A DNA stretch of 44,284 bases from a virus. The notes under the pieces were generated by a model. That model was not told where the DNA came from and did no database searches. It was given only the letters and a program-made list of their open reading frames with translations. The stretch is from positions 1-44,284 of IMG/VR virus record IMGVR_UViG_3300010371_000051; one strand, 5' to 3'. Each line of letters begins with the position of its first letter. Position 1 is the first letter of the stretch. A program made the translations under genes and the position numbers. This document shows, piece by piece, positions 2,378-39,637 of the stretch.

Positions 2378-4001
2378 TCCCCAACAGTTTGCTCGGCTAA
2401 AGGAGCTGTTGGGGATTCCGAAGCGAGTTACGTTCGATGATCTGAAGATCAGAACGAAAGATAAGCGGATAATCCCCTTCGTTCCAAATGCGGTCCAGAT
2501 TCGATACCTAGATGATCTTTGCCCAGAGTGGCGGCAGGGGATTTACAATCTGTCTGGGTTGAGGGAGCTGATCCTAAAAGCTAGGCAGCAAGGTTTTTCG
2601 ACGCTTATACAGGCGATATTCTTTTGCCTTACTCTGAATGAGCCAAATACTCAAACAGTAGTCATAGCTCACGACTTGGAGTCAACAGAACGTATATTCC
2701 AGATGATCCAGTTGTTTTACGACAACTTGCCAGATCACAAAAAGCCCTTTGCAAAATACGCCTCCAAGCGCATGTATCACTGGCCGTCCGTGAATTCTTA
2801 CTATTCAGTCGGAACGGCAGGGGCAAAGAGCTACGGACGTGGTGGGACGATCAATAACGTTCACTTCTCTGAGGTGGCGTTTGCGGAATGCGCAGATAAG
2901 GTGGCCTCAGCTCTTCTTCAGGCGGTACCGATGGATGGGAATGTATTTGAAGAAAGCACCGCTAATGGACTTGGAAACTACTTCCATGAGGAATGGGAAT
3001 CAAGTGGGAATGGTGACTCTGTTTTCCGGCGGCACTTTACGGCTTGGTTCGAGAATCCAGAGTATCGGGTAGATGTTCCTTATGGTTTCAAGAGGACACC
3101 AGAAGAGCAGGTAAGGGCTGATCGGTACGTGTTGGATGATGGTCAATTAGCCTGGTACCGAATCAAGGCCAAGGAACTTAAAGAAGAAGTCAAACAAGAG
3201 TATCCCGAGAACGCAGAAGAGGCGTTCCTAGCTTCCGGCCATCCATATTTCGACCGCAAGAACTTAGTTGCGCAAATTGAGAGATGCAGCCCAACAATCG
3301 ATATTCCTAAGACTGATCGATTGAAGAAAATATCCTTGACGCAAGGATTGAACCTCTACATGGCTCCAATCGAGGGCAAGACCTACGTTATCAGCGCCGA
3401 TACAGCCGAAGGGCTGACGGACAAAGGAGACCATGACTACGATAGCGCGAGCGTCTGGGACGCCGAGACGTGGGAGCAAGTTGCTCACCTTCACGGGCGA
3501 TGGGACACTCATGAATTTGGCCTTTTGCTTGCAGAACTAGGATTTTGGTTCAATAAGGCGCTCCTCGTTATCGAGCGAAACAACCACGGCCACGCAGTTA
3601 TTAATGCGGCTATGCACTCAGGGAACTACCCTCCGATGTCGCCAGGCGAATGCAGTGGCCTTTATTATCACGAAGATTACGATGCCCACACTCAAGTTAA
3701 ATCGAGAAAACCAGGGTGGCCTACGACTCCCAAGACAAAGTATTTCGCTCTTGATGGTTTAGCTAGCTCGCTCCTGAATAACGACATCAAAATCAATTCC
3801 CCCGAAATGATTGCCGAAATGGTTCGGTACGTGAAACTGCCGGGCAACAAATCGGGCGGTGAATCGGGTGCACATGACGACCGGGTTATAGATGCAGCTA
3901 TCGGAGATGTCGCGCTCAAATTGGGACTTTGGAAGAAATCTCCTCACACAAGCGCAATCGAATCGATGAAAGCCTTACTTGCCGCGAGAAACAACAAATG
4001 A
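2292..4001 (+). CDS. terL: Terminase large subunit (ATPase and nuclease)
   Basis: The packaging motor. Counting from ATG 2292, Walker A is KARQQGFST at about 96-104 and Walker B is VHFSEVAF at 191-198. The RNase H-like nuclease has Asp in VISADTAEG (371), Glu in VIERNNHG (429) and the HDD triad at about 529-531. All expected catalytic acids are present, so it should be active. The start is uncertain: ATG 2292 overlaps the small subunit by 86 nt and has no clear ribosome site, while a TTG at 2409 would lie only 3 nt after AAGGAG. The stop overlaps the portal start (ATGA). The product translocates DNA into the prohead at the portal and cuts concatemers. Confidence 0.95.
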   Translation: MLQTSPQNSESQRLDLSSLISPEILRAASPQQFARLKELLGIPKRVTFDDLKIRTKDKRIIPFVPNAVQIRYLDDLCPEWRQGIYNLSGLRELILKARQQGFSTLIQAIFFCLTLNEPNTQTVVIAHDLESTERIFQMIQLFYDNLPDHKKPFAKYASKRMYHWPSVNSYYSVGTAGAKSYGRGGTINNVHFSEVAFAECADKVASALLQAVPMDGNVFEESTANGLGNYFHEEWESSGNGDSVFRRHFTAWFENPEYRVDVPYGFKRTPEEQVRADRYVLDDGQLAWYRIKAKELKEEVKQEYPENAEEAFLASGHPYFDRKNLVAQIERCSPTIDIPKTDRLKKISLTQGLNLYMAPIEGKTYVISADTAEGLTDKGDHDYDSASVWDAETWEQVAHLHGRWDTHEFGLLLAELGFWFNKALLVIERNNHGHAVINAAMHSGNYPPMSPGECSGLYYHEDYDAHTQVKSRKPGWPTTPKTKYFALDGLASSLLNNDIKINSPEMIAEMVRYVKLPGNKSGGESGAHDDRVIDAAIGDVALKLGLWKKSPHTSAIESMKALLAARNNK

Positions 4002-6274
4002 TAATGCCGTGGCAAAAGCCTTTATCGAAAATTGTCGATAGAGCTGTACTAGATAAGGCTCCTGAGATTGCACGTGCGGCAGTCGAAGAGGCGTCTGCAC
4101 GACTCAAAAACGAGGGGCGCGAAGAGTTCGCCAAAGAGATAGCGCGAGCGATGTCGAATCAGCTTATGCCTCAAGGCCCGCAGGCAACGTATCCGCAAGT
4201 TGGAGGTTCACCGCATCCGCTTTATGGTTTTGACAATCCTTGGCGCTACAACGTACCGATCAGCCCAAAGCAAAGAATCGGCTCATTGGTATCTGTGGAG
4301 ACTTTGCGAGCGTTCGCGAATTCCTACGATATATTGAGGTCGTGCATCAACCACCTAAAGCGCGAGGTCCAGGCGCAGGCTTTTTCGATCAAGGCGAAAG
4401 ACCCTAAAGACAAATCGAAATCGACTCAAGACCAAATCGCGAGCGCGTACGAATTCTTTTCGAAGTATGGCGGCTTAGGCGAGATCACTGAAACCCGAAG
4501 GCTTTACGAAGCAAAGATGGTCGAAGACACGATGGTCGTTGGGGCATTCGCCTCGTGGAAGTCTTATTCCAAGGGCGGCAAGCTTCTGCAAGTGCTTAAT
4601 ATTGACGCCAGCACTATTCGCCCGAAGATGGATTCTTACGGGTGGCCAGGTCCTGGCGATGATTGGTACGAGCAATGGATTATGGGGATGCTCATAACCG
4701 GATTCCGACCAGAGGAACTCGTTTACACCGGACTTTGGCCAGAAACAACAACGCCCTATTTTCGTTCAGCAGTCGAGTATTTGGTTATGACAACCATCTC
4801 GGCGCTTGCGGCCGATAAGTGGAATCAGTCCTGGCTTACAGATGGCAACACACCAGGTCAGATGATTTCGTTGCCAGAAACATACTCACCGACTCAGGTC
4901 CAAGAGTACGCTGAACTATTCCTTGCGATGCTCGCGGGTGACTCTAACAAGAGACAGCAAGTCACTTTCGTTCCGGGTGGAGCGAAAAACATAGCGGGAC
5001 CTTCGCGTAAAGATCAGGACTTCTCAGAATTCGAGTTGTGGTTAGCTAGGAGAACCGGTGCTATTTGTGGTGTGCAGCTCGCGTCGATCGGCTTTGCAGG
5101 CGAGCAGTACAAAGTAAGCCAGGAAAAGTCAAACGATAACACTTCTCAGTTCGGCGCCGGCGCTTTTCTTGATCTGCGAAAAGAGCACTACGACGATATT
5201 CTGTGCGATCTGGGCCATTCAAATCTCGAAATTCAGAACGGCGAAACTGCTGAGGAATCTGGACTAGAAAGAGCACAGAGGCTTCTTATATCGATGCCTT
5301 GGACAACGCTTGACGAGATCCGCGCGGACGAAGGCCGTGACCCAATCGAAGGCGGCGAAAACATTCTTGTTTCGAGTCTTTTGCAGCCGTTGGAACGGAG
5401 TCTTAATCCTCCCGATCCTGTTCAACCTACCGAAGAGCCCAAACCAGGTCAACCCGTATCGAAAGCAAAAAAGTCCTCCAAGAAGTCAGAAGAAATGGCG
5501 CGTTGGATGCGAAAGTCTCTCGCACGCGTCAAGGATGGCAAGCCCGCGCTTTGCTCATTTGAATCGGCTTCGATTCCGAAGGACACAAACGCTCGAATCA
5601 TGCGAATGCTAGGCGATGCGGAAACCGTTTCAGACGTGAAAGCAATCTTCCGCGATGACGAGGATGAAAGCGAAGAAGATCCCAAGGATAAGCGCAAGAA
5701 GCTATTCGCGTTACTCCAAATCCAAATAGATGAGGTTGAGGGTTCGCTAGCGTCGTCAGTCGGCGACTTGCAGGCAGGTACGGCAGGAATAACGAAGTTC
5801 GTTGACGACGCTACCGAAGCCCTGCTTCCTCACCATATAAACGCAGCGCATTTAGGAAGGCTAAGAGCGGGTGGCACGGGCGCAATTAACGCTTCTGACA
5901 TCCAGATAGGCACAGCAAACGCTGCGAGTCAACAGGAGTTCCTCAGAAAACTCGCGGCTGACATCCAGTCGGGATCGCTTTCTGATGCGGAACTTTCGGT
6001 TCGATTAAGGCTTTTTGGACAAAGAATTGCGGGAACGGCTAATCAATCATGGGTTAGGGCGCTTCCCCAAGATGCCTCCCTCGCTTGGAACGATGAGGAC
6101 GACGCTTCCGAGTGCGAGGACTGCCACAGACTAGCAAGAGGTGGGCCATATACCCCTGAGACGATCCCAACACTTCCTGGCCTTGGAGAGACAACATGTC
6201 GCACCAACTGTCGTTGTTTTATTACAACTAGCGACGGTGAGACATCCTTTTACGACCCTGAGGACAATGTATGA
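3998..6274 (+). CDS. Portal protein fused to a MuF-like minor head domain
   Basis: The first ~480 residues are portal-like: DNPWRYNVPISPKQRIG, then LRSCINHLKREVQAQ, and GVQLASIGFAGEQYKVSQ near the crown region. A charged linker rich in K/E/D follows. The last ~180 residues look like a MuF/SPP1-gp7 minor head domain ending in ECEDCHRLA...TTCRTNCRCF, a Cys-rich signature typical of MuF C-termini. At 758 aa it is far longer than an ordinary portal (about 400-500 aa), in line with a fusion. I chose ATG 3998, which overlaps the terminase stop; MPWQKP at 4004 is an alternative. The portal ring is the DNA channel, and MuF proteins aid head assembly or early ejection. No separate MuF gene is present. 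Confidence 0.85.
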   Translation: MIMPWQKPLSKIVDRAVLDKAPEIARAAVEEASARLKNEGREEFAKEIARAMSNQLMPQGPQATYPQVGGSPHPLYGFDNPWRYNVPISPKQRIGSLVSVETLRAFANSYDILRSCINHLKREVQAQAFSIKAKDPKDKSKSTQDQIASAYEFFSKYGGLGEITETRRLYEAKMVEDTMVVGAFASWKSYSKGGKLLQVLNIDASTIRPKMDSYGWPGPGDDWYEQWIMGMLITGFRPEELVYTGLWPETTTPYFRSAVEYLVMTTISALAADKWNQSWLTDGNTPGQMISLPETYSPTQVQEYAELFLAMLAGDSNKRQQVTFVPGGAKNIAGPSRKDQDFSEFELWLARRTGAICGVQLASIGFAGEQYKVSQEKSNDNTSQFGAGAFLDLRKEHYDDILCDLGHSNLEIQNGETAEESGLERAQRLLISMPWTTLDEIRADEGRDPIEGGENILVSSLLQPLERSLNPPDPVQPTEEPKPGQPVSKAKKSSKKSEEMARWMRKSLARVKDGKPALCSFESASIPKDTNARIMRMLGDAETVSDVKAIFRDDEDESEEDPKDKRKKLFALLQIQIDEVEGSLASSVGDLQAGTAGITKFVDDATEALLPHHINAAHLGRLRAGGTGAINASDIQIGTANAASQQEFLRKLAADIQSGSLSDAELSVRLRLFGQRIAGTANQSWVRALPQDASLAWNDEDDASECEDCHRLARGGPYTPETIPTLPGLGETTCRTNCRCFITTSDGETSFYDPEDNV

Positions 6275-6475: not shown

Positions 6476-7021
6476 ATGATCCAAGCAATTGTAGGACTAG
6501 CATCAACTACGTACACGGCGAATAACAACACGCCATCGTTTAATACGCAAGGGTTGTCAGAACTCCTCATTGACATCAATGTGACCAGCGTGCGAGGCGT
6601 TACCCCATCGATGGCTTGGTTCCTCGACCGCCAAGGAGCAGATGGTCTTTGGTATCCCTGTTACAGCCCCACGGCTCTTACTGCTGCGGGAGTTATTTCG
6701 ACAACACTCGGTCCTGGTCAAGCGACTAATCAGGGATTCTCGAATAGAGCGCGGCTGAGGTGGACGGTAGCAGGAACGGCGACTAACACAACCGTTTCGA
6801 CGGGTGCGAACTCCGCAACCCAAGCACTAACCAGTACGGCTGGAATGCTTGCGGGAGACACCTTGCAGTTTGTAACCGCTGCGACAAGCCGAACGATTCT
6901 AACAGTCACCGATTCGACTCATGTCGTCTTGGACTCGGCGGTCAACTCAACTACCTCAGAGGTCGTAAACGTGACTAACACGCCAGCCATGACGTTCTCG
7001 GCAAGCATTCAGGGTCAATAG
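6476..7021 (+). CDS. Beta-rich virion-like protein with an inserted Thr-rich domain, 181 aa
   Basis: The N-terminal part has GLSELLIDINVTSV and the C-terminal strand reads LRWTVAG...AMTFSASIQGQ. Both ends match the 114-aa protein encoded at 7519-7863 (IETLEIDINVTAI; LSWVLSG...ATFSAMLQGR), so the two are paralogues. Unlike that paralogue it carries an extra segment at about residues 104-166, which closely resembles a segment of the major capsid protein. The Thr/Ser/Val-rich composition suits a decoration or head-surface protein, but this is inferred from position. Starts at an ATG with AAGGAA upstream. Confidence 0.7.
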   Translation: MIQAIVGLASTTYTANNNTPSFNTQGLSELLIDINVTSVRGVTPSMAWFLDRQGADGLWYPCYSPTALTAAGVISTTLGPGQATNQGFSNRARLRWTVAGTATNTTVSTGANSATQALTSTAGMLAGDTLQFVTAATSRTILTVTDSTHVVLDSAVNSTTSEVVNVTNTPAMTFSASIQGQ

Positions 7022-7024
7022 GTC

Positions 7025-7501
7025 GTGAATTTTATAGGGAATTTCCAGAATTCGGAAGCGATTCAATCGGCAATTTCTAGGATTCCAGAACCAATTCTAA
7101 AACAGATTTCTTGTGATTGGGCAATTGGACGATCCCCGAGTGTCCTTAGCCCTTACTCAGATCATCTCACCAGAGACGGTCGCCCATACTCCAAAACCGC
7201 TCATGTCCTATATGAGTTTCACCAGGATCATTTACCGCTGTATAAGCGAAATGTAACAGTCGTACTTCCGTTAGAAGTCGGGCCAAAAACCGTAATCCAC
7301 GAGATCGCTCATGTAATCCACGGACTGGGATGGTGGATAGGATTCAATCCCGTTTGCGACTACGCGAAAACCAACTACATGGAAGCATTCGCATGTGCAT
7401 TTGAAGAGTTCATAACGCCAGGCACATATGATCCTATCCGTGCCAATGAGTGGTTATGGTTTGCGAGAATGGCCAAAGTTGGACCTAATGAAATGCCTTG
7501 A
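7025..7501 (+). CDS. Zinc metallopeptidase (HExxH) in the head operon
   Basis: GTG start, 3 nt after the previous stop; 158 aa. The zincin motif is HEIAH (His92, Glu93, His96), followed 24 residues later by Glu120 in NYMEAFACAFEEFI. That is the spacing expected for the third zinc ligand in a gluzincin-type fold, and it resembles the compact catalytic domain of lethal-factor-like (ATLF) peptidases. All active residues are intact. There is no signal peptide or transmembrane segment. It lies between two paralogous beta-rich genes and before the serine prohead protease, so it may be packaged or act during assembly. The substrate is unknown. Confidence 0.8.
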   Translation: MNFIGNFQNSEAIQSAISRIPEPILKQISCDWAIGRSPSVLSPYSDHLTRDGRPYSKTAHVLYEFHQDHLPLYKRNVTVVLPLEVGPKTVIHEIAHVIHGLGWWIGFNPVCDYAKTNYMEAFACAFEEFITPGTYDPIRANEWLWFARMAKVGPNEMP

Positions 7502-7518
7502 TTTATTAATGGAGCATC

Positions 7519-7863
7519 ATGCCAAGTTTAGTAACACCTTATCAGGTCAACGCGAAAGCCGTAAGCGCGAATGGCCAAACTGATCCTATCGCCACTGGCT
7601 CAATTGAGACTCTTGAGATCGATATAAACGTAACCGCGATTTCTGCGGGGGCCACGATCTCTTTCACCTATTCCCGGCTCGACTCATACGGCAACGCTTA
7701 TCCCGTTTGGACAGGTGGAGTATCGGCGATTGGAACTATTGTCGATGACATTGGCACGGGAATGAATGTCCCGAAGTCGCCGGGCTCTCAGGGAGTTCTT
7801 TCGTGGGTGCTATCTGGAACAACGCCCACAGCCACTTTCTCGGCGATGCTTCAAGGCAGGTAA
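7519..7863 (+). CDS. Beta-rich virion-like protein, 114 aa (short paralogue)
   Basis: Begins MPSLVTPYQVNAKAVSANGQ after a GGAG site. It aligns with both ends of the 181-aa protein at 6476 but has no inserted domain; the C-terminus SWVLSGTTPTATFSAMLQGR shows the join. The strand-rich, low-charge composition resembles small decoration or tail-like proteins. No enzyme motif seen. Function inferred only from position and paralogy. Confidence 0.7.
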   Translation: MPSLVTPYQVNAKAVSANGQTDPIATGSIETLEIDINVTAISAGATISFTYSRLDSYGNAYPVWTGGVSAIGTIVDDIGTGMNVPKSPGSQGVLSWVLSGTTPTATFSAMLQGR

Positions 7864-7870
7864 TCAATAA

Positions 7871-9337
7871 ATGAGAATCCAAAATCAAAACCCGCTTCAC
7901 TTTTTTGCACCGATAGTTCGGTACGACGATGACAAGCGTATCGTTGTAGGCCGTGCTTTCGCGAATGAGGTAGTCACCGGTGAAGGCGGTATAAGGCTCA
8001 AGTCGAGCGCGATGGAAAACGCCACGGCAGACTACATGAAGTACGGGACTATCCGTGCCATGCACCAGCCCGTAGCGGCAGGTACAGCCACCCCAAATGA
8101 TCCAGAAATAGCCAAGGAATGCGGCGTTAGCTGGATTGATTTTGATGGGAAGCGCGTTGCAGACATCTCTTGCTACATCTCCGATGATACGGAATGGAAG
8201 AAAGTCAAAGACGGCACCTATAAAGGCTTTTCCGTTGGCGTTGCCCCTAAGGTTATGCGCGGTAAGACGGTGGAATCGTGCACATGGTTCGAAACTTCTC
8301 TTGTTGATCGCCCCAAAGACCCTGACGCGCTATTTACAGCCTTCCGGGTAGATGGATTGGGTGAGATTCTTTGCGAAATCCACGACGACGAAGAAGAAGA
8401 AATCGAACGATTAGAGGAGCTAGAGCGCGGAAGATGGACCGCTGAAAAGCGGAAAGAACTTCCCGTCAAGGACTTTGGTTGGCCAGAGAAGCGTAAATAT
8501 CCTATCGACACCCAAGAGGATGTTGATTCTGCGGCGAAGCTGATTGGTAAGGCTCCCGAAGACATGCGAGAGCGCATCAAAACAAAGATTATCGCTATCG
8601 CCAAGCGCAAAGGACTTACCGTGCCCGACGCATGGGAGACAGAAGAGACGAAGCGATACCTCGAGCTAACCGCCGTTACCAGGGGAATGTTCGCCAAGGT
8701 AGCCGAAAGTCAGCTTCCCGGTCAACTGCGCTATGTTGCGTTCGATATGCTCTCGAACTGCATTTGGATGATTCAAAGTGCAGTGTTCGCCAGCGATGAA
8801 GAGCGAGAAACAGCTTTGCGAATGGCTGTTGATGAGTTCGCCGACTTCCTCGTACCCATCGTAGTGATGAAGTCGTGGCCGGATCCTGCGATCTTTGCCG
8901 ACGTTGAAGATATCGACGTCGCGCCTTATGACCGTGCGGCAGTTCCGATGCTAACGCGAATGTCCGAAGTTCGGGCAGAACGGATAGCAAATATCACCCG
9001 AGTTGAAGAACTCGAAACACAAGTTTTCGCGCTTACAGCTGAGCGCGATGAATCGATAACCCGAATCGCTGAAGTGCAAGAACTCGAAAGGGTTGCAAAA
9101 GGGCGCATTGCGGAGTTGGAGAACATGCCTACGCGTCCTCGGCCTCAAGTCGGGCAGACGCAAGTTATCGAACGCACGTTCGGTACGAATCCTGACCATT
9201 CCAGCGAAATCAAGAAACTCAAGGACCGTAAATCGGAAATTGAGCGAATGGACCGCTCTCGGGATGGCAAGTCACAAGATGGCCGTGCTCATGAGCTAAT
9301 GCGTATCAAACGCGAGCTTGAGTCACTCGGCGCTTAA
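7871..9337 (+). CDS. Prohead protease (XkdF-like) fused to DUF6582 and a coiled-coil scaffold
   Basis: 488 aa. Residues 1 to about 160 form a serine prohead protease of the XkdF type: FFAPIVRYDDDKRIVVGRAF, a candidate catalytic His in IRAMHQPVAAG, a candidate Ser in YKGFSVGVAPKVM, then WFETSLVDRPKDPDALF. Around 190-255 there is a DUF6582-like stretch (LPVKDFGWPEKRKYPIDTQ, then ERIKTKIIAIAKRKGL). The last ~130 residues are coiled coil (VEELETQVFALTAERDE; LERVAKGRIAELEN). The capsid gene follows directly. In HK97-type phages the scaffold fills the prohead and the protease removes it, so this one chain could supply both functions. Confidence 0.85.
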   Translation: MRIQNQNPLHFFAPIVRYDDDKRIVVGRAFANEVVTGEGGIRLKSSAMENATADYMKYGTIRAMHQPVAAGTATPNDPEIAKECGVSWIDFDGKRVADISCYISDDTEWKKVKDGTYKGFSVGVAPKVMRGKTVESCTWFETSLVDRPKDPDALFTAFRVDGLGEILCEIHDDEEEEIERLEELERGRWTAEKRKELPVKDFGWPEKRKYPIDTQEDVDSAAKLIGKAPEDMRERIKTKIIAIAKRKGLTVPDAWETEETKRYLELTAVTRGMFAKVAESQLPGQLRYVAFDMLSNCIWMIQSAVFASDEERETALRMAVDEFADFLVPIVVMKSWPDPAIFADVEDIDVAPYDRAAVPMLTRMSEVRAERIANITRVEELETQVFALTAERDESITRIAEVQELERVAKGRIAELENMPTRPRPQVGQTQVIERTFGTNPDHSSEIKKLKDRKSEIERMDRSRDGKSQDGRAHELMRIKRELESLGA

Positions 9338-9359: not shown

Positions 9360-10790
9360 ATGATTTCACCAACTCTTAGCGGCTTCATGCGAGGGGATTT
9401 GGGGGAAGGGGGATTTAACCCTGCCTTCCTTCAACGATCTCGACCTATTTACCAGGATTCCACCGGCGATATTCAAGGCCGAATGGATCAACTCTTGCGC
9501 GGTGAATTCGGTGATACCGATCCTGCGCAGTTCCTTTTGTCCCTGCAAACGGACCTGTTGCAGCAGCTTAACCGTGCTCAAACGTCAACCGGTATCCCAG
9601 TTCGCGAAGATCTCGAAGCGCCTGCGCTACAGATCGTCCCGCTTGACACTCCGTTTCGCAACCGATTGCCTCGAACGGTGGGGTCTAGCACTGCATCGTC
9701 CTGGGAGCAAGAAGTTGCCTTGGGTGGCGGCTACGGCGTCAACACCACTATAACTTCTGGCACGTCCTCGGCGACTCAGACGGTAGCGTCAACCGCTGGT
9801 ATGCAGCCGGGAACGTCGCTCTACTTTGCGGTGACGGCGGCTTATCGAACCGTTGTATCGGTTACAAATACGACAACTGTCGTATTAAACTCAACGATCT
9901 CTACGACCACGGCAGAAGGTGTCTTCCAAGGTCCTTACGCACAGCCGGGGCAGGCTCCTGTTCAGATGTTCTTCGCTGAAGACGGAGCGCCTGCTACGGC
10001 CAAGGCAACGTACGCAAAGCTCACTCTCGCATACAAGCTGCTAGGTACCATCGGATCAATCACCGGATTCGCAATGGCGGCTGGCGCTACGTACCAAAAC
10101 CAGCGAGATGCCGAAATTCTTGCGGGCATTCGCCGAACAATGCTCTCAGAGGAGAACGGTCTAATCAATGGTTCTTCGACAATTCTCACCGCACCTTGGG
10201 GTGATGGAACTACGAACTTTGCCTTTGATGGCTGCCTTAATCAGACCACAACCGCAAACGGAACGCCGGGACAGCAAGTCCAAACAGCAGTAGGCGCTTT
10301 GACTACCGCTCACATGGATCAGCAGCTAACCCGAATCCATAACGAGGGCGGTATGGATGCCTATATCATCGCAAACGCTCAAGAGGCCCTTTCTCTTGCG
10401 CACCTTGCGACGGCTTCCGGCTCCATTATCCGCGTCGAAGCGACTTCGAGCGCAGATATGATTCTGGGTGGTCGAGTTATCGGATACAAGCATCCTATCA
10501 CTGGGCAAATCGTTCCCATCGAAGTCTCGCGGTTTATGCCGGCAGGCACGATGTGGTTCGGAAGCGAGCGCGGCCCAGACGGTATGGTAGCCGCCGATGT
10601 CCGAGTTCTCCCGCAAGTTCAGCTTCCTGAACTTGCGCCGAACGTCAACATCCAAGGCTACGTAGCCCAGGAGCTTGCGCCGACTACGGCAGCTCCGCAG
10701 GTCTATGCCTTCCTGATCTCAGTGTTCGAAACCTTGCGAATCAAAAACGCTAAGGTCGTCGCCAAGAGTTCGGGGCTCACTCCAGTCTAG
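9360..10790 (+). CDS. Major capsid protein (HK97 fold) with an E-loop-region insertion
   Basis: 476 aa from ATG 9360, preceded by AAAAAGGA. The order after protease and scaffold, and the stretches PFRNRLPRTVGSSTASSWEQ, FFAEDGAPATAKATYAKL, GGMDAYIIANAQEAL and MILGGRVIGYKHPITGQIV, match HK97-fold capsid proteins. About residues 128-187 are an extra Thr/Ser/Val-rich segment set between the SWEQEV strand and the FFAEDGAPA strand, where the E-loop lies. That segment matches the insert in the 181-aa protein at 6476. The N-terminal ~85 residues may be a delta-domain removed by the protease. Forms the icosahedral shell. Confidence 0.92.
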   Translation: MISPTLSGFMRGDLGEGGFNPAFLQRSRPIYQDSTGDIQGRMDQLLRGEFGDTDPAQFLLSLQTDLLQQLNRAQTSTGIPVREDLEAPALQIVPLDTPFRNRLPRTVGSSTASSWEQEVALGGGYGVNTTITSGTSSATQTVASTAGMQPGTSLYFAVTAAYRTVVSVTNTTTVVLNSTISTTTAEGVFQGPYAQPGQAPVQMFFAEDGAPATAKATYAKLTLAYKLLGTIGSITGFAMAAGATYQNQRDAEILAGIRRTMLSEENGLINGSSTILTAPWGDGTTNFAFDGCLNQTTTANGTPGQQVQTAVGALTTAHMDQQLTRIHNEGGMDAYIIANAQEALSLAHLATASGSIIRVEATSSADMILGGRVIGYKHPITGQIVPIEVSRFMPAGTMWFGSERGPDGMVAADVRVLPQVQLPELAPNVNIQGYVAQELAPTTAAPQVYAFLISVFETLRIKNAKVVAKSSGLTPV

Positions 10791-19024: not shown

Positions 19025-19260
19025 GATCAACCGAATTCGAGTACATGAAGCAGTCCGAAAGGAAGCGCGATCACCACGAAAAAATTCAAGGCGCTCATTC
19101 TCCATTCACGAGAGGGCGGGCACTTTCTCAAAGTATTAATGTCGATCAACTTCCTATTGCTACCTATCTCAACATGGTTCAAGATGCGACCGGCCCGGTA
19201 CAAACGTTTTACTTCGTGATTGGCTACAGTAGGATTGGCGGGCCGGACGTGGTTCGTTAA
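19021..19260 (+). CDS. Hypothetical tail-region protein, 79 aa
   Basis: Overlaps both neighbours by a few bases (ATGA and TAATG). A charged N-terminal helix (FEYMKQSERKRDHHEKIQ) is followed by LPIATYLNMVQDATGPVQTF and a strand YFVIGYSRIGGPD. No known family. The close coupling to two tail genes suggests a tail-assembly or minor tail role. Confidence 0.6.
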   Translation: MRSTEFEYMKQSERKRDHHEKIQGAHSPFTRGRALSQSINVDQLPIATYLNMVQDATGPVQTFYFVIGYSRIGGPDVVR

Positions 19261-22200
19261 TGCCTACTTGGAAGACTGGAAAGTCCAGAACTATTACGAT
19301 ATCTGGCACGATGTCCGGAGACTATTCCTTTTGGATCGAAACAGTTGCAGTTCCGCTTCCAACTAGAACTCACAATAGTCAGTCTGCCGGTTCAATGGAA
19401 CTCGCTTGGGGCGCTCTTGGGGCGATCGTAACATGGCAGCAAGCGCCGACCGTTCCTACAAATCCATCCGGGGACAAATTCTATGGCGTTATCGTCACGG
19501 CAGATGATGGACAAGGCCATACCGGATCAGATCAGGCAGGCGCATATATTCACGAAACTAGGGGCCCAGGCTTAAATATTGCGTGGGACCTTTCAGCGTC
19601 AGGAACCTGGTCTTTTTCCTGCGATGTCGAAGAATGGGCTTCGACTTATATCCCAACTGCTGCATCTTTAATTGACGGAACTCCGTTCTCGAGTGCGGGC
19701 GGAGCCGCGCAGGGTGACGGATTATCTGCAAGAGGAGTTGTATTTTACGAACTCGCAAAGGTGGGCGGCACCCTTACGGTTCACATTGATTATGGTGGCG
19801 CTTCTGTAACGCTTTCAAATCCAGTCACAACCGCTTTCCCGATTGGATATATCCACGTGGGCACCGTAAATGGGGCCGTATTTGGAGCATCTTTTATTTA
19901 CAACGAAAACGCGACGGTTCAGTTCGATACCGGAGTTGTCTTGCCTTCCCAAACATGGACTAAAACAGATTTCGACGGGACAGCGACTGCCACGTACAGC
20001 GGACGGCTATTAAGCCTTCAGACTCAAAACATTCCAGCAAGAACAGTCGGCGGCCACGGCTCGGCTTCTGGCGCAGTGCAACCAGTTACCGAATACGCGC
20101 TTTCGGGAAGAATCATGTCTTTCCGAAGCCCCTTCCCTGCGCCTGGACATACGTTAACAATTCAAGAAAAAGCAGGGGGAACGAATTCACTTCTGCTCAA
20201 TAACTCGGCATCAACCAGTTGGTCTCAGAACCATTACAATATCGCGGCGTTCTTGCAGAGTACGAACTTTGGGCCACTAGTTCTCGATGAGCTTTCACCT
20301 GTTTCATGCTGGCTCTCTGGGCTTTCTCCTGATGATCCTCATGATTGGCGTTGTATGTTTCGAGGGTTCAAGTGGGACGCGATGACACTGGCTCATGCTC
20401 CTTCGGTTACGGTAGATCCTTGTACGGCTTTGACTCACTGGACAGCCGGGAGCAACACGACCCTATCCATAAGCGGTGGCCACTTGAAAGCCGTCGTAGC
20501 GGGCGGCGCGGGGGCTTTCACGCTAAATGTCCCATCTACCGTAAGAGTATGGGAAGCGTTTCGTTATCTTCAGATTCACGGGTTCTTCACTGCACCTGCT
20601 TACGATAACGGGCGAACGTACTTAACCGGCGAACTAGTTCTTGATGCTGGAATAACCTATAAGTGCATCCTGCCTACGGTTGGCCATGCTCCCCCAAATG
20701 CAACCTATTGGGCTGTCTTTAATGATGTTGTGGCCTTCACTATCTCTATTGGCTCGCAAACTTGGAATGTAAATCTCAAGACTACGACCTCGCAGCCAAA
20801 TACGGATCTCACTTGCTCGACAAACGATACAACGACGGTAAACGGGACTCAGAGTAGGTTCCCAATTGTTAATCCAGGTGGCTTCCCGATTGCGACTGAT
20901 CCGACAAATCAATATGAACTCGGTTGGGGGACAAATTTCTGCGACACCCTTATTTTTGGAGCGATTCCAGATGGTTATACGATTGAACTTACTGGCGTTT
21001 CTCTTGTCGAGTCAACATCTCCACAAAGGCAAGCTGCATTAACGCTTCTTGAACCTTTCATAAGCTTTGTCGATGGTTGGACATCTCCAAGCGATCAAAC
21101 AACCGTTCAGTCGTATGTGTTCATTGAGACCGACTATCGCCCGATGGACATGCCCGCCCTCGCTCATATACAGCCATTCTCAGGAGGTCCAAGCTATCGC
21201 TACTACTCGCTTTCTGAGATGCAGGTTATGCTTGCCTACTTCCCTGGGTTGACGGCTACCTTGCTGCCAGATCCAACAGACGGTTACCACAACTCTGGAC
21301 TCGAAATGCTTCTGGCTGGGGCTGAAGGCGCAACTTATGACTGGACTGCTCTTGCGTGGAAAGATTGGGTAGATGTCCCAGTAAATACGACCATTCCTGC
21401 TCAAGACCTTTGGGACGAAGTGCAAGTTTATCCTGGCGCCGGGAATGTTTGGGATGCTACAGCGGGATACGGAGGGGCAACGCCTTTACTCGTTTCAAAG
21501 AGTTTAAGGGCTCAGGCGTGGGGCATCGTCTTTACGCTTGACGGAATGCCTCAGAACCATGTGACGGTAACGGTTTATGAAACAGGGAGTCCTTCGACCG
21601 GCGAAGGGTCTGGCATAACCAACACATTAGGATTTTATCTAACAGATACACCTTGGGCATTTGGTAACGTGAATTCAACTGTCGAGTTGCAGTTACCTCC
21701 GCTTCCACATCTGACCGACCATGCAGTTTTGCAGAATAGACAAAGGCGCAGAGAGTCGTTTCGGCATCCAAGCCTTGGGCTAGGAGTGGACCTCACCCAT
21801 GACAAATTTGGGATTGTCTACGCCGTGATATCGGGAGGAACGAACCTAATTGCGACTCGATTTAACTTTGCTGATGTCAACGATATCTTTACTGCCTATA
21901 GCGGAACCGCCCTTAATGCTGGCATCGCTTGCACCCCAAGCCGAGGGCTATTCATCGTGTTTGATGACGGGACGACCTCCTATATCATCAGATCGACGAA
22001 CGCGGGGCAAGACTGGAGTTCGCCAGTGAGCGTGGCAACTGGAACATGGCCTGAACCATGCATAGACGATTTATCGGGCACTGAATTTATCGCGATCTCT
22101 GACGGAACAACTTACCATTGCTACCGAAAAACGAACCAAGAAACGACGTTTACAAATGTTGGGGCGATTGTCTCTGTGACGCCTGGAAAGTCGGGGATGA

Positions 22201-22307
22201 CGGTTCGCGGATCAGTCGGACGGCAGGTCATTTTTGAAGTCTCCGACTCGGGGACAGTTAGACGATTTGTGAGCACTAACATGGGCGTCGCCTGGAACGA
22301 AGTATGA
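19260..22307 (+). CDS. Large tail fibre / baseplate protein with BNR-like C-terminus, 1015 aa
   Basis: The bulk is strand-rich, Gly/Thr/Ser-heavy sequence typical of tail-tip fibres. Near the C-terminus are degenerate Asp-box motifs (RSTNAGQDWSSP; STNMGVAWNEV) within a repeated strand pattern (FIVFDDGTTSYIIRSTNAGQ), as in beta-propeller BNR/sialidase-like modules. Key catalytic sialidase residues are not apparent, so glycan binding is more likely than cleavage. The start overlaps the previous stop by one base. A role in adsorption is inferred. Confidence 0.65.
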   Translation: MPTWKTGKSRTITISGTMSGDYSFWIETVAVPLPTRTHNSQSAGSMELAWGALGAIVTWQQAPTVPTNPSGDKFYGVIVTADDGQGHTGSDQAGAYIHETRGPGLNIAWDLSASGTWSFSCDVEEWASTYIPTAASLIDGTPFSSAGGAAQGDGLSARGVVFYELAKVGGTLTVHIDYGGASVTLSNPVTTAFPIGYIHVGTVNGAVFGASFIYNENATVQFDTGVVLPSQTWTKTDFDGTATATYSGRLLSLQTQNIPARTVGGHGSASGAVQPVTEYALSGRIMSFRSPFPAPGHTLTIQEKAGGTNSLLLNNSASTSWSQNHYNIAAFLQSTNFGPLVLDELSPVSCWLSGLSPDDPHDWRCMFRGFKWDAMTLAHAPSVTVDPCTALTHWTAGSNTTLSISGGHLKAVVAGGAGAFTLNVPSTVRVWEAFRYLQIHGFFTAPAYDNGRTYLTGELVLDAGITYKCILPTVGHAPPNATYWAVFNDVVAFTISIGSQTWNVNLKTTTSQPNTDLTCSTNDTTTVNGTQSRFPIVNPGGFPIATDPTNQYELGWGTNFCDTLIFGAIPDGYTIELTGVSLVESTSPQRQAALTLLEPFISFVDGWTSPSDQTTVQSYVFIETDYRPMDMPALAHIQPFSGGPSYRYYSLSEMQVMLAYFPGLTATLLPDPTDGYHNSGLEMLLAGAEGATYDWTALAWKDWVDVPVNTTIPAQDLWDEVQVYPGAGNVWDATAGYGGATPLLVSKSLRAQAWGIVFTLDGMPQNHVTVTVYETGSPSTGEGSGITNTLGFYLTDTPWAFGNVNSTVELQLPPLPHLTDHAVLQNRQRRRESFRHPSLGLGVDLTHDKFGIVYAVISGGTNLIATRFNFADVNDIFTAYSGTALNAGIACTPSRGLFIVFDDGTTSYIIRSTNAGQDWSSPVSVATGTWPEPCIDDLSGTEFIAISDGTTYHCYRKTNQETTFTNVGAIVSVTPGKSGMTVRGSVGRQVIFEVSDSGTVRRFVSTNMGVAWNEV

Positions 22308-38040: not shown

Positions 38041-38630
38041 GTACTCTCCTTTGCTTGTGCAGGGTCGCACTCAATAGCCGCAAAGACTTTCCCGGCCAAA
38101 ATCGCGTCCTCTAAAGCCCCGTGCACATCCGAACCACGACTTAACCCGAAGTGAGTCGACACGGAGTCAAGCGAGTATTTATCAATCTTCAGCGCATCCA
38201 TAGCGAGCATTCTCACGCACTGCCACGGACCCAAAAACGGCGCAACGAATGATTCGAACGACCTTGTTTGCTGGTTCCATGTCCCAGCCATGAACAGCAA
38301 TTCCGAATAAAACGAAAGATCAAAGGGGGCGTTAAATGCCACCACAGTTAAGCGCCTAGCGTCATGAGTCACTGCCCATTCCATGAGCGTTTGGCAAGTC
38401 TGAAAAGCTGGCGCACCGCCTTTAATCTTCTTCCAGGTCGTACCGGATACCTCCAACGCAACCACGTCATATACCCTCGTTATTCTCCCATCTCGCATTG
38501 GTGGAGCAATGATTATCTCAAATGACTCAATCTCGGTCCCGTCATCCATAAGGGCTACCCCAATGGATACGGGAGCATTAACCTTCGAGTCAAGGCCCGA
38601 TGTTTCGAAGTCGATCGCAACGTACCTCAT
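38037..38630 (-). CDS. DEDDh 3'-5' exonuclease, DnaQ/RNase T-like, 197 aa
   Basis: Exo I motif DFET (Asp7, Glu9), Exo II in AFNAPFDLSFYSELL, and Exo III HGALEDA with catalytic His and Asp, so the DEDDh set is complete. It is free-standing with no polymerase domain. These enzymes chew single-stranded 3' ends; here it probably trims recombination or replication intermediates. It is located directly after RecT in the leftward operon. Confidence 0.9.
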   Translation of the reverse strand: MRYVAIDFETSGLDSKVNAPVSIGVALMDDGTEIESFEIIIAPPMRDGRITRVYDVVALEVSGTTWKKIKGGAPAFQTCQTLMEWAVTHDARRLTVVAFNAPFDLSFYSELLFMAGTWNQQTRSFESFVAPFLGPWQCVRMLAMDALKIDKYSLDSVSTHFGLSRGSDVHGALEDAILAGKVFAAIECDPAQAKEST

Positions 38631-39637
38631 GCTCGCATCCCCTCAGCGAACCCATACAATGCCGCCTTGTCTGCAACCCCAGCGGCTTTAGCTTGCGCCT
38701 GTACATTCTCGGGTTCAAGATTGTTAGATTCGCACCAAATAACAAAATCAAGCCGTTCATTTTCGGGCATACCGAGTTCTAGCGTTAGGGGGATAGGCGC
38801 GCCGAACGCGTTTTCGTCAATGATTGCGCCCTTTGCTTTAGCCTTATCCTTAACCCCGTTGACGCCTTTCGTCGGTTCCGATGGTCCGGGTAATTCTAGG
38901 GCTTCGGGAATGTCGAATTCGAGCAGAGACATATCTCCCGTGTCGATCGCGTCGTCTAGGCGTTCGGCCTTTGCCATCTCGATTGACTTTGGAATAAGCT
39001 TCGTGCCGTTTCTGATGGCGGTCTTCATGTACATGGCCGCTGTGTCTGTATTCCAGGGAGAATAGGCGCTGCTGCTTCCATCTGCTCTCTGCCGAATGCG
39101 GTCTAGTTGCTTGCGGTTAAGCACCTTGAAACTCTTGCTACCGTCCTTCATTCCCACGACCATGTAGGCGTAGATAATCTTGGATGGATCAATATCGTCC
39201 CCGTTGGGAATGTGCTTGAGTTTCGGGTCGAGGCCAAGTTCGAATTCGAAAAGATCATCCTGGTATACGACCTCGGCCGTAAGGAAGGAAACCATGCCCG
39301 AACGATACGCCAAATCGACATACCCCCGGTAGTCGATAATGAGTTGCGCTTCCCATATTGGCGGGTTCATCTTGTTGTTCTTTCGAGGTACGAGGTGCGC
39401 AAGTTGCAAAGCGCTTCCCGGCTCGAATCCGAGTTCCGCGCCTTGCATGACGGCGCGAACTATGCTCTGGGTCGTGCACTGCAACAACATCGGGTTTCGG
39501 GTAGCCGCGCCAAGTGCGACCTTGATTAAGCGTTCGGCGGTTACCCGCTTGGCGGCGACGGCGCTAAAGGAGTTTCGCGCCTTTTCGAGCGCTTGGAGCA
39601 ATCTTTGCTCAGGACGGACTAGTTCATCATTTGCCAT
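38627..39637 (-). CDS. recT: RecT single-strand annealing protein, 336 aa
   Basis: SIVRAVMQGAELGFEPGSAL, QLAHLVPRKNNKMNPPIWEA and QLIIDYRGYVDLAYRSGMVS are the RecT family core. It ends with a charged linker and a small helical C-terminal segment. RecT coats single-stranded DNA exposed by the partner exonuclease and anneals it to a homologous strand. Its ATG follows the YqaJ exonuclease stop by a few bases, the usual pairing. Confidence 0.95.
   Translation of the reverse strand: MANDELVRPEQRLLQALEKARNSFSAVAAKRVTAERLIKVALGAATRNPMLLQCTTQSIVRAVMQGAELGFEPGSALQLAHLVPRKNNKMNPPIWEAQLIIDYRGYVDLAYRSGMVSFLTAEVVYQDDLFEFELGLDPKLKHIPNGDDIDPSKIIYAYMVVGMKDGSKSFKVLNRKQLDRIRQRADGSSSAYSPWNTDTAAMYMKTAIRNGTKLIPKSIEMAKAERLDDAIDTGDMSLLEFDIPEALELPGPSEPTKGVNGVKDKAKAKGAIIDENAFGAPIPLTLELGMPENERLDFVIWCESNNLEPENVQAQAKAAGVADKAALYGFAEGMRA

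Follow-up and report, generated by a model that had tools for sequence, protein, structure and literature searches.

The window (i.e. the whole stretch of DNA that was analysed) is an IMG/VR virus contig of 44,284 bases, IMGVR_UViG_3300010371_000051, in which the head genes lie in the order portal (3929-6274), 181-aa protein (6476-7021), 158-aa ORF (7025-7501), 114-aa protein (7519-7863), protease (7871-9337) and capsid (9360-10790); the portal, both small proteins, the protease and the capsid are encoded on the plus strand. The portal protein has an extended C-terminus and matches phrog_2662 (portal) at E 7.8e-34, with residues 588-769 matching phrog_24776, while the protease, a head maturation protease or scaffold-like protein, matches phrog_34096 (head maturation protease) at E 3e-6 and phrog_21715 at E 4e-19. 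Residues ~189-256 of the protease form a DUF6582-like segment (sub-threshold); a similar one is found in the protease of the related lineage L020 and is apparently absent from the shorter proteases of L006 and L009, and it is possibly another optional module. The 158-aa ORF between the two small paralogues has a GTG start and a HEIAH motif of the kind seen in zinc metallopeptidases, with zero Pfam matches up to E 0.1. Elsewhere in the window, a 1015-aa protein (19260-22307) has a weak, sub-threshold match to CBM_5_12 at residues 447-473, and a RecT recombinase (118 bits) is encoded on the minus strand at 38627-39637.

The capsid gene encodes 476 aa from the ATG at 9360, and its open frame contains a further start (TTG at 9318) that gives 490 aa. 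The protein scores 31.5 bits against the Pfam family SU10_MCP (PF17236), above the cut-off of 24.1, its relatives score 42.7-53.9 bits, and phrog_13692 was matched by the capsids of 15 out of 15 relatives. The predicted model is poor overall (pLDDT 54); in Foldseek its best solved matches were the SU10, VP1 and HK97 capsids and encapsulins, at probability 1.00 and with low TM because of the poor model. The window capsid protein is an SU10-type, HK97-fold major capsid protein. Going by the parts of the SU10 description used here (PMC9509320), the SU10 major capsid protein is of the same family by PF17236 profile and by fold; in these parts, no density is reported that would belong to minor capsid proteins, gp10 is described as Ig-like with an unclear role, and there is no mention of an E-loop insert like that of the window.

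Within the capsid, a segment of ~65 aa (9729-9935, core 9741-9923, plus strand) is homologous to residues ~100-168 of the 181-aa protein (6773-6979, plus strand), at 45-48% identity and ungapped. The initial annotation had placed a shared beta domain at 9741-9920, which indeed corresponds to capsid residues 128-187 if the ATG at 9360 is taken as the start, and the likeness that it had seen by eye is confirmed by a single 65-residue local alignment with about 48% identity and a BLOSUM62 score of 157 (maximum of 500 shuffles: 78), in which SATQ, STAGM and VVL are in register. A tblastn search of the capsid segment against the whole 44,284-base record returned only itself and 6788-6964 (E 1.2e-11). 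When a profile was built from the three small-protein inserts alone it recovered the capsid of the window (E 1.8e-14), and a profile of five capsid inserts alone recovered the 181-aa protein (E 4.6e-17); the reciprocal profile matches ranged from 1e-14 to 1e-20 in 2741 ORFs, and comparing profile with profile also supports the homology. Within a genome, the capsid and small-protein inserts are 35-57% identical. Since Ser, Thr and Val are abundant in both segments, the likeness could in principle be that of two Ser/Thr-rich beta segments brought together by chance or composition, but with an alignment score at twice the shuffle maximum, with these reciprocal matches and with the empty sites found among relatives (see below), this explanation was ruled out and can practically be dismissed.

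The 114-aa protein is a paralogue that consists of the core only. As had been proposed, the sequences flanking the insert in the 181-aa protein align with it (score 93; highest shuffle score 72), while the insert itself is missing: with its empty site near 7819-7824, the 114-aa protein resumes directly past the insertion point (...SGT|TPTATFSAMLQGR, versus ...AGT(insert)TNTPAMTFSASIQGQ in the 181-aa protein). It could also be aligned to proteins of 116 aa (L006), 112 aa (L009) and 135 aa (L010), and it has nothing in common with the capsid (score 34, under the shuffle mean). Neither of the two small proteins matches any named family by profile, decoration families included. In L010, the core-only protein is followed by a further small protein of 115 aa (L010:4940-5284), which may be virion-like and whose sequence appears unrelated by eye.

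The AF2 model of the 181-aa protein (pLDDT 88.7, pTM 0.71) has an all-beta core, predicted to form a jelly-roll-like beta-sandwich, with the insert at a hairpin tip, where it separates strands 88-101 and 171-180, the last two of the core. Strands are modelled in the insert at 103-109, 112-118, 129-132, 137-144, 149-157 and 163-167, and are predicted in the capsid insert at 135-142, 153-156, 161-168, 173-182 and 187-190, where residues 131-190 of the capsid model form a block with pLDDT 73-85. Compared by strand order alone, the two models match, and different folds for the two segments, the outcome that would have spoken against a common domain, are not what the predicted secondary structures show. 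The proposal of a transferable beta domain is thus upheld by the homology, the empty sites and the matching predicted strand order of both copies. Immediately behind the capsid insert, the flank can be aligned with 9vel_C, a solved capsid chain, along the stretch that leads into the spine helix. This alignment would place the insert in the E-loop, as had been suggested; the fold class of the capsid is a further basis for this placement.

The description of the domain as 'Ig-like', on the other hand, is not supported: four variants of the domain gave no match to Ig-type Pfam families up to E 1, and the domain, at about 65 residues, is smaller than Ig domains typically are and has five to six short strands. 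For the alternative label, 'decoration-type', there is one weak match to Phage_cement_2 (PF09956) / head decoration phrog_122, by the divergent copy of L010 (the sole copy matching), but at 15.5 bits it stays below the cut-off of 24; none of the 15 records exceeded the cut-off for PF09956, and membership of that family was rejected on the basis of a single sub-threshold match. The small core gave weak jelly-roll and TNF-like matches among solved structures (TM about 0.3), as well as a fold match (TMt 0.72) to a 115-aa protein of PPpW-3, which is probably ORF-7, two genes after the PPpW-3 capsid gene (identified by length only).

Alignment-based scans of IMG/VR yielded about 14 further lineages beside the window, and a scan with the resulting alignment of 15 capsids returned the same lineages again, together with near-copies of L020. 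Scans of GTDB genomes with the capsid alignments gave zero relatives, and tblastn with the window domain as query had no hits among 50,697 phage records. The domain is present in the capsid of eight of the 15 lineages (window, L006, L007, L009, L020, L010, L011 and L014) and absent at the same point in the other seven (L008, L012, L013, L015, L016, L017 and L018), with closely similar flanks; for example, the empty site of L013 reads GGGWG-SSYD-QPGGGSA-FF, versus GGGYG-(domain)-QPGGGSA-FF in L011. A tree of the capsids from which the domain columns had been left out requires the domain to have changed state at least twice. The domain is an optional capsid module, present or absent at one point among relatives. 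In L010, L011 and L014 it has a divergent form, and a profile-profile comparison of the L010-type with the window-type domain (probability 92%) gives moderate support for their relation. The capsid copy of L007 (=L003; L007:7319-7672) has an additional loop within the domain and more residues behind it than the other copies. The closest isolate capsid, that of THSA-485A, was considered as a carrier of the domain and gave no match to the domain profile; by eye, this capsid (L062:3875-5287) appears to have, behind the spine-helix region, an FN3-like insert rather than an E-loop domain.

A similar picture is obtained for the small proteins. The insert is found in those of the window, L009 and L020, at an identical position in all three, and four small proteins are without it: the 114-aa protein of the window and those of L006, L009 (second copy) and L010. 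The clean insertion first seen within the window is hence borne out by empty sites at both the capsid and the small-protein loci, and the segment is missing from several relatives of the 114-aa protein, rather than being carried by all of them as simple loss in the window would have it. When a profile of 11 domain copies was run against 16 whole records, the domain appeared only in capsid and small-protein genes and never in tail genes. The small core family occurs in five of the eight records with a domain-bearing capsid and in none of the seven without, although these lineages are related and hence not independent. L007, L011 and L014 have the capsid domain and no detectable small protein, and in L006 and L010 a small protein lacking the insert stands beside a domain-bearing capsid; because of these five lineages, the pairing of the domain in capsid and small protein is not obligatory.

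The domain is maintained by purifying selection in both capsid and small protein. Between the small-protein inserts of the window and L009, third codon positions differ by 0.71, compared to 0.26 and 0.24 for first and second positions. Between the same two lineages, the insert of the small protein is 68% identical versus 51% for the core before it, and that of the capsid is 77% identical versus 64% for the downstream body.

In the tree of the domain set, where support is low, the inserts of the three small proteins group together as a single clade (78/88, i.e. not strong), which branches next to the capsid copies or among them. A tree that pairs each small-protein copy with the capsid copy from the same genome was rejected (p-AU 0.0015 for the window and 0.0065 for L009), which excludes recent intragenomic copying or ongoing gene conversion. 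Therefore, a single old transfer followed by vertical descent is the simplest account, and the one that fits best and is favoured by the tree tests. The cores add a complication, in that the insert-bearing core of L020 groups with the insert-less 114-aa protein of the window (93/91) and a topology uniting all insert-bearing cores is rejected, though at the borderline (p-AU 0.049). Either a later swap between paralogues or an early gain with several losses is needed, and it is likely that some later exchange or loss between the small-protein paralogues took place. The same two observations would also fit a history in which the small proteins had the domain from the outset and the 114-aa type lost it, its empty site being a deletion. 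This seems unlikely, since core-only forms in the window, L006, L009 and the distant L010 would require several losses, whereas a swap between paralogues accounts for L020 in fewer steps, and the position of the small-protein inserts beside or among the capsid copies fits a gain from the capsid. The direction of transfer, from capsid to small protein, is likewise favoured rather than proven by the wider spread of the domain among capsids.

The best explanation, to which a probability of about 0.5 is assigned, is that an optional capsid module was copied once to a small decoration protein and clamps the shell. In an ancestor shared by the window, L009 and L020 phages, the capsid domain would have been copied, once, into the hairpin formed by the last two strands of a small jelly-roll-like protein from the head gene cluster, and selection would have retained it since. 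The capsid copies would lie on the outer surface near the local three-fold sites, at the tips of the E-loops, where they would reinforce the shell; the small protein would serve as a decoration or cement protein, the own domain copy of which packs against the capsid copies or replaces them, such that the shell is clamped.

That the capsid domain is most likely on the shell surface, and that the 181-aa protein may be a virion decoration protein, is suggested by analogy with four known systems. In PhicrAss001 the HK97-fold capsid protein gp32 has a beta-rich E-loop insert comparable to the one predicted here, a beta-barrel I-domain on the outer surface, which makes a three-fold assembly with a separate auxiliary protein, gp36 (PMC10172136). 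The I-domain comprises about 100 residues and gp36 has PH and FD domains (PMC10172136), whereas the domain described here, which would share the surface position, comprises about 65 residues, and the second protein bears a recognisable copy of the same domain. The E-loop insertion of N4 belongs to the decoration interface (PMC11768535). Phage phi29 also combines a capsid insertion domain with a second head protein: the BIG2 insertion of its capsid is contacted by the head fibre protein gp8.5 (PMC7602432), the two meeting at quasi-three-fold sites and both having Ig-like parts (PMC7602432, PMC9509320). An Ig-like fold was not found here, and the sharing is visible in sequence, at the within-genome identities given above. 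In BPP-1, finally, the small jelly-roll cement protein Bbp16 stands beside an HK97-fold capsid and touches the E-loop (PMC3863775); compared by description, it differs in that no insert domain is described for it.

The co-occurrence of the small family with domain-bearing capsids points weakly in the same direction, i.e. towards decoration. Contact between the capsid and small-protein copies is hypothetical. A more specific form of this idea, in which the phage obtained a second shell component by copying its insertion domain, with capsid and accessory protein recognising each other through homotypic clamping or through quasi-equivalent substitution where a capsid copy is missing, is quite speculative.

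A surface-binding role is the main rival to clamping. The domain would then be a general-purpose phage surface module, serving adhesion or the binding of glycans and inserted at whichever hairpin tip is exposed on the virion, and its presence in two genes would raise the display density without implying contact. Segments resembling the divergent form of the domain occur in two jumbo phage proteins, the Tunturi_5 tail fibre (20.7-21.2 bits) and a PA5oct structural protein (29.6 bits with the L010/L011/L014 profile), and the TNF-like fold matches of the small core include lectins, next to a carbohydrate-binding module, all of them weak. There is also precedent in the exchange of Ig-like domains, for which a survey, as far as it is cited in PMC7602432, lists one family in several virion protein classes (coat insertions, decoration and tail proteins). 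That case concerns another domain family; the present one is marked by a probable single old transfer, and empty sites are seen at the donor-type locus as well as at the acceptor locus. Moreover, the window-type profile alone does not reach tail proteins, its link to the tail-fibre type via the L010-type domain (at the 92% mentioned above) is weak, and tail genes of the 16 related records are free of the domain. On balance, a general surface module is somewhat unlikely.

Alternatively, the small proteins could be connector, neck or tail-associated proteins, with the insert serving their own oligomerisation and its likeness to the capsid being without present function. Their genes lie between portal and protease and do not adjoin the capsid gene (as in L006), they match no decoration-family profile, and their fold matches are scattered across many jelly-roll-like proteins. 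Yet the insert is the better-conserved part of the 181-aa protein, the small family is seen only with domain-bearing capsids, and its match at TMt 0.72 is to a PPpW-3 protein probably encoded just two genes past a capsid gene (by length only), which makes a connector role decidedly unlikely. It is thus the copied, shell-clamping capsid module that is retained as the preferred explanation.

Overall, the reading of the domain as a mobile one is well supported. E-loop insertions that meet accessory proteins are already known; what is new is a sharing between capsid and accessory protein that is visible in sequence, with empty sites at both. Such domain sharing is more often recognised from structures, once sequence similarity has faded. 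Here, a virion module has been caught both empty and occupied at two genes of one phage group, at the level of sequence, which opens the question of how surface domains are gained by capsid proteins, and whether an accessory protein can evolve through a domain taken from the capsid that it may bind.
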